64,000 nt of DNA from Ecytonucleospora hepatopenaei. Its lineage: Eukaryota > Microsporidia > Enterocytozoonidae. The position numbers and the translations under genes are program-made. Positions within the stretch are counted from its first letter, which is position 1. The number at the start of each line of letters is the position of its first letter. Below are positions 33,776 through 37,640 of the stretch, one piece after another. The DNA lies in the NCBI GenBank assembly GCA_026692725.1, contig JAPMUG010000001.1, positions 558,001 through 622,000 of the forward strand, read 5' to 3'. The notes under the pieces were generated by a model. That model did not search any database and had not been told where the DNA came from. It worked only from the letters and a program-made list of their open reading frames with translations.

Positions 33776-34261
33776 TTACCATAAACTTTCAACAAATGTT
33801 TTAACAACATCTTTAGCACTAAAATTAAGAAAGTTGTGTTTGATTTCTTTTATAATAAAAAAGCAGAGATAGTCAAAGACTTGATTTGGTTGTATTTGTT
33901 CTTCATTCAAAATGTGTCGTTTCCCATATTTAGATGTAATTTCACCATTTTCAAGGTAAATAACCTCAGAATATTCTTTGGGTTGCAAACGGGCAGCCAG
34001 TTTACCTGTTTCAAAGGAATTGACACACAAAAAGGCTACATTATTGGTTGTTAGCTCAGATAACTTATTGGCTGTATGTTTATTAAAAGTAACACACCAT
34101 GAATTGTTTTTTATACTATCAAAGTTATCTTTATTTAGAAATAAAATATTAGCGTTATTTGTTTGTTGTGTAAATCTTTTTATAATCGATTGAATGTTAA
34201 TAAAAAAATAAAATAAAATGACAAATACCTTTTTAAAAGTTTTTTTGAAATTAATTAGCAT
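33776..34261 (-). CDS. thioredoxin-fold-like membrane or ER protein lacking the active CxxC
   Basis: 161 residues with an N-terminal hydrophobic signal or anchor (VFVILFYFFINIQSII). The rest follows a PDI/thioredoxin order: FLNKDNFDSIKNNSWCVTFN, then VAFLCVNSFETGKLAARLQP, then SEVIYLENGEITSKYGKR, which parallel the first strand, the VDC....C..f...P segment and the final strand-loop. The CxxC redox site is absent, so it would be a non-catalytic relative. TACCCTTTAAATG gives the start. Fold inference only. Confidence 0.5.
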   Translation of the reverse strand: MLINFKKTFKKVFVILFYFFINIQSIIKRFTQQTNNANILFLNKDNFDSIKNNSWCVTFNKHTANKLSELTTNNVAFLCVNSFETGKLAARLQPKEYSEVIYLENGEITSKYGKRHILNEEQIQPNQVFDYLCFFIIKEIKHNFLNFSAKDVVKTFVESLW

Positions 34262-34306
34262 TTAAAGGGTATCTCAAAATAAAAAATTTTGTAAACAATA
34301 TCTTAC

Positions 34307-34554
34307 AAATAGATAAATTATCTGAATAAAATGTCATATTTAAACAACTAATTAAGAAATACCAATTGCTGTGAAATATAAAATAAATAAATAAATTATG
34401 GGTTTATTTAATATCTGTTTTTTAAGCTGCAAAAATTAAATAAATTTTTCACAGGTATTTAATATTAACATTATGCTAAAAATGCTTATAGAGCAATAAG
34501 CATGCTAAAAACTAAAAATACACAATATTAATATTATGAGCCTGTTATTTGTAA
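34307..34554 (+). repeat. left arm of 248-bp perfect inverted repeat flanking ArgRS
   Basis: Read in reverse complement, 36429-36676 is identical to this stretch over all 248 bases. Weaker similarity continues outward to about 34283 and inward to about 34571, broken by a few substitutions and a 1-bp gap. Inside the arm ATGCTTAT (34482-34489) and ATAAGCAT (34496-34503) form a hairpin, bracketed by two direct copies of ATGCTAAAAA (34473 and 34502). No coding frame is present. Confidence 0.95.
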
Positions 34555-34602
34555 ACTTTGTCAGGATGTGACAAATATAATAATATTATTTCCTTAACAA
34601 AC

Positions 34603-36299
34603 CTACATTTTATCCAAAGGCGTTAACCCCAAAACACAAATAGCATTTCGTAGCACTATCTGTGCACACTTAAATAATGCTAAACGTGACTTTGCCACCT
34701 CACTATCTTCTCCTTTGACTCTGCACTTGTTAATGACCAAATTTATACTCGTGCATAAATCTTGTAAATATAAAACATATTTAGAAGGTTCAAAATCTTT
34801 TAAAACTGCTTCATTAACCGATTCAAACCACAAAAGCTTGTAAATCAACTGCTTAACATCAGCATCTTCTGACAAACTAGAAAAATCAACCTTACTAAAA
34901 TCATTTTCCTTGTGAAATCAAAAACATCCTTGTTTACATCCAAAATAGATAAAAGACGACAATGTGTATATTGTATTGTAGGGCCTAATGCCTGTCCTTT
35001 CTGAGTCGTAGCTTTTTTCTTAATGTCAAATGTATATCCTTTTATTCGTTTTGCACTAAAGTCGTTGACAACCAAAAATGAAATGGCTAAAATTAAGCTT
35101 GTTTTTTCTTTATCAATTACATCCGGCTTATCTTTTACAAAGTCATAAAAAACACTTTGTGCTGTTTCAATGACATCATCAATAAAGTGAACCGTACCTT
35201 CCCTTGTGCTCATGCCCTTAACTAGTCCAAACTCAACATGCTCAAAAATGTCTTTGTTATAACCAAGCATTTCACCAATTTTAAACAATTGTTTAAAATG
35301 TAAAGATTGTTCAGAAGAAACAACATAAATTATTTTGGATGGTTTATATTCCTCTACCCTTTCCTTAAGTGCCTCAATATCACGGGTTATGTACAATGTT
35401 GCTCCATCATTTTTCAGAATAAGTGCTTTTCCCAAATCTTTACCACAATCAATAACTTTAGAGCCATCCTCATCAATTTCAATTAGGTCGCATGTATTAG
35501 CAAAAACTTTTCCTCGTTCATTATAAAAACTCTCCCCTGAATAAACATCAAACTCTACATTTAGCTTTTTATACAATTCCTTGTACTTTTTAATTGAAAT
35601 GTCCCTAAAATTACGCCATTGTGCCAAATATTCTTCATTTCTATCTTCTTCCATAGCCCTAAAAATGTCACGTGCTTCTTGTTGTAACTCTTTGTGCTTG
35701 TTAACTTCCACATAAACATGAAACAAATGCATTAAACTATCTTTTTTAAGCTTTTCTTCGCTACCAAACAATTTATAACCTAGCAAAACCAAACCAAATT
35801 GTTTACCCCAGTCACCAAGATAATTTATAGAGACTGTTTTATACCCGTTGAAATTTAATAAATTCTTTATAAAATTACCTAAAATAGTTGTCCTAAAATG
35901 ACCTACGTGGAAAATTTTTGCAATGTTTGGACTTGAATATTCTACCACCATAGTTTCGCCTGTTTTGTTTTCAATCGATCCAAATTCTTCATTTTTCTTA
36001 AGAATAGAAGACAATATTTCCTTTACATTGTCTTTAATATCATAATTAAACATAATTGCATTTTGTGTAGTATCTACATCAACAATTGTGTCTTTGTATT
36101 TTTCCAATCCTTTGGTAATTTTAGACAGTGTCTTTTCAAAATTTTCTTTCTCACACAGATTATTTAAGAACAATACAAAATACTTTTTCTTATCCTCAGA
36201 ATACTTTAATAGGTACGTCTCAATAAGTTTTTCATCCAAATCAGAAGCTTCAGAAAGAATTTTAACCACTTGATTATGAATCTTTTTAATACTTAACAT
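34603..36299 (-). CDS. RRS1: arginyl-tRNA synthetase, interrupted by a one-base frameshift
   Basis: Two overlapping reverse frames together make a complete class I ArgRS of about 565 residues. Frame one (36299 to about 34900) has the N-terminal domain, VEYSSPNIAKIFHVGHFRTT (the HIGH motif, here HVGH), and KGMSTREG in the KMSKS position. Frame two (about 34915-34603) carries the rest of the anticodon-binding domain, ending LRNAICVLGLTPLDKM. They join if one base is missing between roughly 34890 and 34925. ArgRS charges tRNA-Arg and is essential, so either the base is a sequencing loss or an intact copy exists elsewhere. CCCC lies 12 bp before the ATG. The gene sits between 248-bp inverted repeats. 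Confidence 0.9.
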
Positions 36300-36428
36300 T
36301 ATAAATGGGGTGTAATTTTTTTAATTTGCATATAAGACTGTCAATAAAAGAGTATTCAATATGCATATTTAAGCATTTAAGAAGAAAAAAATGAAACCTT
36401 AGACATTTATTTCACATCCTGACAAAAC

Positions 36429-36676
36429 TTACAAATAACAGGCTCATAATATTAATATTGTGTATTTTTAGTTTTTAGCATGCTTATTGCTCTATAAGCA
36501 TTTTTAGCATAATGTTAATATTAAATACCTGTGAAAAATTTATTTAATTTTTGCAGCTTAAAAAACAGATATTAAATAAACCCATAATTTATTTATTTAT
36601 TTTATATTTCACAGCAATTGGTATTTCTTAATTAGTTGTTTAAATATGACATTTTATTCAGATAATTTATCTATTT
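36429..36676 (-). repeat. right arm of 248-bp perfect inverted repeat flanking ArgRS
   Basis: Exact reverse complement of 34307-34554. Imperfect similarity extends to about 36702 on the outside and 36412 on the inside. The distance between arms is 1874 bp, filled by ArgRS and short spacers. No target-site duplication or transposase was found. Confidence 0.95.
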
Positions 36677-36813
36677 TTAACGATATTGTTTACAAAAATT
36701 TGCCCACACACATTTTACTTATTCTATACACATTTTATTTATATTAAATTTAATTATTTAATTACATTTATATAACGACAACATTTATAAAAAACAATAG
36801 ATAACAGATAAAG

Positions 36814-36953
36814 TTTGACAGGTAAACGCACCAACGACCAGCAACCAATAAGCGAAGGATGTAAGTCATGTGGCTGAAAGATGATACCCTATGTCAGTTC
36901 TTAGAGAAACTTCAAGTCCGGGCTTCAAGCAGAATGTTAACTCATCTTTTTTT
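36814..36953 (+). ncRNA. candidate Pol III small RNA (possibly SRP RNA)
   Basis: A 140-bp segment with much higher GC than its surroundings, ending in a T7 run (36947-36953), the Pol III stop signal. TGGCTGAAAG (36871-36880) resembles an A box and CTTCAAGTCC (36910-36919) a B box. GATGA (36880-36884) can pair with TCATC (36942-36946) to close a long hairpin whose apex carries AAGTCCGGGC and AAGCAG. The latter two and an upstream TGTAAGTC...GGCTGA loosely recall the S-domain and Alu-domain signatures of SRP RNA. It is not a tRNA (the T stem fails) and not 5S. Identity is inference. Confidence 0.5.
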
Positions 36954-37640
36954 GAAATATTCTTTTGTTTATTCTTACGATTAAAAAATGATTTTAAAAA
37001 TTCTAAAATATTGTTAGAAATTTTTTATTTAACTTAAAGCTAAAGGAAAAAATATAAATTTTACGCACTTACTTTTTTAGATAAAAAAAATCTCTTTTAG
37101 CCCAAATACATGCAATTAATAAATTTTATCTCAAGATTTTTTAAAAACAAATCAATAAATATTATTGTCAGCTTGTGACATTTGTAAAATAAGAATTGAT
37201 GTATTTTACTCCTTTAACTCCTTTAAAAGTATATAAGAAGAAAAAGTTTCCCCTATATCTTAACATTAATTAAACTGATACATATTGTAAAACATGAACA
37301 ATAATACTAATAAACTATTTATTAATGACTCTCAATACTCTGTCTCTGGCAATTATAATAAAAATATGACATCGTATAATAAGTTATTTAAATTTTATTG
37401 ATTTATATAATTTCAGTTCAAAAGTATAAAAACATTATCAAAATTATTAATAAAGAGAATAAATATTAATAATTTTGCTATGTTTAGATATGTAAAATTG
37501 ATTAAAAAATAAATAGTTGATATATTTTATGATTATTAAATTTATAAATAATAATGATATGCTGTCATTACAAACCAATGTGTCTCCTTATAATTTATTG
37601 GTTATTTCAATTAAAAAATAAAATTTTTGCTCTGAAAAAT
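36954..37640. other. 687-bp intergenic region upstream of the C2H2 gene
   Basis: AT-rich. It holds CTCCTTTAACTCCTTTAAAA with TATATAAG and TTCCCC at about 37205-37255, which looks promoter-like, and a 35-codon frame at 37294-37401 that starts after it. A TTTCAG (about 37411-37416) follows that frame, so the small frame could be a first exon, but no clear 5' splice site was seen. The extent suggests a regulated rather than housekeeping promoter. Confidence 0.3.

Follow-up and report, generated by a model that had tools for sequence, protein, structure and literature searches.

The ArgRS locus and its inverted arms

The window, i.e. the whole 64-kb stretch of DNA that was analysed, covers positions 558001-622000 of contig C5 and encodes ArgRS, a proteasome beta subunit and a C2H2 protein among others. 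ArgRS is located between two inverted repeats, arm 1 and arm 2. The features of the locus are listed below with the evidence in parentheses.

34283..34570, plus strand: arm 1, a member of a dispersed repeat family, with a perfect core at 34307-34554 (inverted-repeat search, assembly search, pairwise alignment)
34474..34512, plus strand: nested hairpin of arm 1, bracketed by two ATGCTAAAAA copies and mirrored in arm 2 (sequence and alignment of copies)
34603..34875, minus strand: ArgRS DALR anticodon-binding domain (PF05746), which the assembly shows in a different frame from the catalytic part (ORF list, Pfam)
34845..36299, minus strand: ArgRS N-terminal and catalytic frame (PF00750) (ORF list, Pfam)
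36413..36701, minus strand: arm 2, an inverted member of the same dispersed family as arm 1, with a perfect core at 36429-36676 (inverted-repeat search, assembly search, alignment)
36413-36688, within arm 2: 276 bp absent from a paralogous site at C5:57.7 kb (L032) (alignment)
36689..36945, plus strand: paralogous tract that adjoins arm 2 at its 5' end and includes a candidate small RNA of higher GC content at about 36810-36935 (relatives at C5:57736-57940 and C9:60487-60719)

The inverted repeat around ArgRS is real and exact. The two perfect 248-bp copies described in an earlier sequence-only reading of this DNA were reproduced to the base (34307-34554 and 36429-36676; G+C 19%) and form the longest exact inverted match in the window. 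Over 276 nt the extended arms reach 98% complementarity; 1826 nt separate them. An inverted-repeat search (seed 16) listed no other inverted pair of at least 40 bp in the window, and dinucleotide shuffling of the window (10 replicates) gave longest exact inverted matches of 17-21 bp, compared to the observed 248 bp. The earlier reading had placed the arms in non-coding DNA and this holds as far as tested, with no ORF of at least 80 aa overlapping them and an Rfam match below threshold only. A structured non-coding RNA was rejected: the sole Rfam match in the arms was '6A' (28.1 bits versus a gathering score of 41.2, E 0.023) and the consensus fold of 9 aligned copies contained only 5 pairs (−1.31 kcal/mol). 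When six copies were folded singly on both strands (12 folds), the minus strand of arm 1 alone fell well below its shuffles (z −3.4). No conserved secondary structure was therefore seen.

We found no other gene between the arms, in agreement with the claim that ArgRS stands there alone, but ArgRS itself reads in two frames. These overlap around 34845-34920. A database protein of 565 aa (P0001) is intact and is identical to the first ArgRS part at 462/465 positions and to the second at 89/90 (99%), and hence an assembly error or an allelic variant probably explains the frame break. Another database protein, P0002, stands at 74% identity. Among the 120 matches listed the nearest named ArgRS proteins are those of Enterospora canceri (67%), Nucleospora cyclopteri (60%) and Glugoides and Hepatospora (both 51%), and all are microsporidian. 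Together with the TTAG telomeres described below, this marks the genome as that of a microsporidian. The assembly search gave a single ArgRS match, and the idea that another copy makes the flanked gene dispensable was rejected.

Each arm contains the hairpin ATGCTTAT-AGAGCA-ATAAGCAT and both bracketing ATGCTAAAAA copies, as had been noticed before. The proposed likeness to a protein-binding site is not a feature of the family. Across 9 aligned members we counted two ATGCTAAAA copies in each arm, one in five others and none in the remaining two, and in the 7 copies outside the arms the hairpin formed 5-7 of its 8 pairs (G-U counted). We therefore rejected the hairpin with its direct repeats as a protein site, given that the double repeat is absent from all seven.

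A dispersed repeat family at chromosome ends and inside chromosomes

The arms belong to a family of AT-rich, non-coding repeats of ~290 bp that occupies at least 24 places in the assembly (3.09 Mb, 13 contigs). Searches with arm 1 and with another copy, L009, each returned 23 places, of which 22 were common, giving a union of 24; these counts are lower bounds. The search for further copies that the sequence-only reading had called for thus succeeded, and its picture of the arms as a special device around ArgRS is unsupported, since both are members of a dispersed family with 16 of its 24 known places in subtelomeres.

These 16 copies lie ~2.6-4 kb inside a telomere tract (distances measured by hand) and every one of them has its 5' end towards the telomere. 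Fourteen are at contig ends (of 26 in total, these 14 being the ends fetched for telomere inspection) and two are on C5, at about 216 and 427 kb, by internal telomere tracts. The family thus shows the distribution of a subtelomeric repeat, with copies near telomere arrays at many chromosome ends. When five loci were used as queries, the subtelomeric copies were found, among the matches listed, within blocks of at least ~700 bp common to chromosome ends. Their identity to the arm is 74-76% over some 190 bp, and for the four that were aligned ~68% over the whole alignment. In one subtelomere (L011:7149-8165) there is an ORF of 338 aa, the start of which we take by eye to resemble a Tc1/mariner transposase. 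A plasmid relative was rejected as blastn against plasmids gave no match.

The other eight places are interstitial: the two arms, C5:362 kb, C5:421 kb, C13:15.8 kb and the partial copies at C5:387 kb, C5:58.0 kb and C9:157.0 kb. The arms are 98% identical to each other and the next copies reach 86% (C5:362 kb and the partial C5:387 kb).

The contig ends that were fetched carry TTAG/TTTAG arrays. According to the accessible parts of two papers, TTAG telomeres occur in Glugoides intestinalis and Microsporidia sp. MB, and one of them ties the motif to the Enterocytozoonida clade (PMC12449221, PMC13174016); the former also mentions telomere-associated repeat elements of microsporidia. At ~219.7 kb on C5 (L042, C5:219400-221900) TTAG meets CTAA arrays head to head, and a further internal tract was encountered at C5:430.3 kb (end of L026, one side seen). 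C5 therefore probably represents two or three chromosomes joined in the assembly. The join and the ArgRS frame break both indicate that the assembly is not flawless.

We also compared what the 5' end of the element faces elsewhere. Arm 2 has the small-RNA-like tract in this position and arm 1 an ORF that starts at 34261. A sequence resembling a C/D-box snoRNA is found there at C5:421 kb, C13:15.6 kb and C5:58.2 kb. Such sequences were located at L028:3436-3500, L012:3580-3750 and L032:1960-2045; two have the same core, one has several changes, and the flanks have diverged. The best Rfam match was snoU54 for the L028 sequence (E 0.00065 in a 241-base search, below the gathering score) and snoR12 for the L032 sequence (E 0.039). 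By eye we saw no such small RNA beside L009, L010, C9:157 kb and one subtelomere (L016), and six 5' contexts gave no match by eye and with a simple C/D-box pattern, run without a positive control. As the three snoRNA-like neighbours are duplicates of one another and none was seen beside the other copies inspected, we claim no promoter role for the element. The tract at arm 2 contains a GC-richer, well conserved sequence of ~120 nt, present in three copies (36810-36935, L032:1590-1715 and L033:1520-1690), each followed by a T run. With a best Rfam E of 0.68 for the window copy, we regard it as a candidate small RNA gene. The same intergenic region holds a further duplicated segment (37150-37358; 98% to C5:716578-716788 and 82% to C7:241355-241545).

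Probable insertion of arm 2 and identity of the core

Sequences related to the tract next to arm 2 (36705-36932) occur at C5:57736-57940 (L032, 73%) and C9:60487-60719 (L033, 72%). In L032 the bases matching window positions 36374-36412 (33/39 identical) and 36689-36932 (180/246 columns) are directly adjacent, and exactly the 276 bp corresponding to 36413-36688 are absent. The simplest reading of this alignment is that arm 2 was inserted in the window. In L032 a partial repeat copy closely follows the tract, the reverse of the order in the window, where the repeat comes first; L032 thus has a history of its own and a precise loss there is possible. In L033 nothing matches the left flank of arm 2, and this locus is uninformative on the insertion. 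Beyond the insertion boundary ~12 bp (AAATTTTGTAAA) are common to arm 1, the arm 2 flank and L032, with L009 matching at 10/12; this sharing would also fit arm 1 as a direct local copy of arm 2.

The dispersed copies and the paralogous site without exactly 276 bp could suggest that the repeat is a non-autonomous, MITE-like transposable element, which we consider possible, if doubtful. Like MITEs, the family is short, AT-rich, non-coding and dispersed and has a filled/empty site pair. Unlike them, it shows no terminal inverted repeats by inspection, as its two ends (CAATATC... and ...GTCAGGATGTG) do not form an inverted pair, and no demonstrable target-site duplication, any such duplication being hidden by the T runs that flank the 276-bp site. 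Arm 1 has a 9-bp inverted match (TTACAAATA / TATTTGTAA) inside its ends, but in arm 2 this match is disrupted. Moreover, the subtelomeric copies lie within the longer common blocks, with no evident independent insertions among the matches listed for the five query loci.

The distribution of differences between the arms bears on how they were kept alike. Pairwise alignment placed every difference at the edges and none in the 248-bp core: one inserted base and one substitution at the 5' edge, with a further mismatch at its outermost position, and two adjacent substitutions at the 3' edge, where the two sequences diverge past GATGTG. For four events in 288 bp the simulated probability of an event-free run of at least 248 is about 0.0016, which is only suggestive because the homologous span was chosen after the data had been seen. 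At the four edge sites, read by hand, L009 agrees with arm 1 at two and with arm 2 at two, and hence both arms hold private changes. The sequence-only reading had offered recent duplication or gene conversion for the identity; that pair of explanations stands, and the edge-only pattern favours conversion between two older copies rather than one fresh duplication. The core is probably kept identical by local gene conversion. A single fresh inverted duplication, for example by template switching, with accidental edge mutations, would account for the 98% identity and the common flank AAATTTTGTAAA, but four edge events versus none in the core, at the post hoc probability given above, make it unlikely.

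Recombination between the arms might also flip the ArgRS segment, giving two isomers in the population and at the same time keeping the arms identical. Such flipping is possible, and long identical inverted arms 1.8 kb apart that differ at their edges only are a substrate for it; near-identical inverted flanking arms, as in an invertible segment, are present here. We nevertheless judge it quite improbable as the explanation, as conversion without crossover accounts for the same pattern. In L032, which lacks the repeat at this site, the 39-bp flank on the inner side of arm 2 and the tract on its outer side are adjacent and in the same order, which counts against flipping although it would still be compatible with it. 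No recombinase was found among 10 ORFs of the region scanned in Pfam (5 matched a family and 5 matched nothing).

An artefact of assembly or polishing as the source of the second arm, or of the identity between the two, appears very unlikely. C5 does join telomere arrays head to head, the ArgRS frame break is absent from a 99% identical database protein and over-polishing could create identity artificially, but the two arms are not identical at their edges, and both their left and right flanks differ.

Interpretation and comparison with known systems

We conclude, with a probability of roughly 0.7, that the arms are two inverted members of a dispersed ~290-bp microsporidian repeat, that arm 2 was inserted, that conversion has kept the core and that ArgRS lies between them by chance. 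Family membership, the exact core, the edge-only differences and the 276-bp difference from the paralogous site are observations, whereas conversion, the direction of insertion and the lack of a role for ArgRS are inferences from them. Most known copies of the family share their orientation and their approximate distance from a telomere. Arm 2 would have inserted beside the small-RNA-like tract, upstream of ArgRS, and arm 1 would be either another family member or an inverted copy made locally from arm 2. As the arms are only 1.8 kb apart, conversion between them may hold the inner 248 bp identical while the edges drift, and the position of ArgRS would carry no role for the gene. In yeast the X core is a chromosome-end element acting as an origin or silencer. 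By analogy, the repeat might be a functional chromosome-end element with internal outposts, and the ArgRS pair a recombining inversion or cruciform that places an essential translation gene under end-like control, with two isomers of different expression coexisting; we regard this as speculative and most improbable.

This one locus shows a compact microsporidian genome that has subtelomeric-type sequence inside its chromosomes and that may keep nearby copies identical. If the arms do recombine, a parasite poor in intergenic DNA would have an essential gene inverted time and again; at a spacing of 1.8 kb, such inversion can be counted directly with long reads. We found no report of the ArgRS locus in the accessible parts of the microsporidian literature on subtelomeric repeats, Enterocytozoonidae, inverted repeats, gene conversion, inversion and the Enterospora telomeres and assembly.

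Invertible segments between inverted repeats are known from the yeast 2-micron plasmid and from organelle genomes. The ArgRS locus is similar to these in having identical inverted arms around a segment, but differs in that the arms belong to a dispersed family and that a recombinase and a second isomer are hypothetical here. The EXT subtelomeric repeats of Encephalitozoon cuniculi, as described in the accessible part of PMC4704409, are likewise blocks common to many chromosome ends, whereas the 290-bp unit described here is found in chromosome interiors as well, in the form of solitary, diverged copies.
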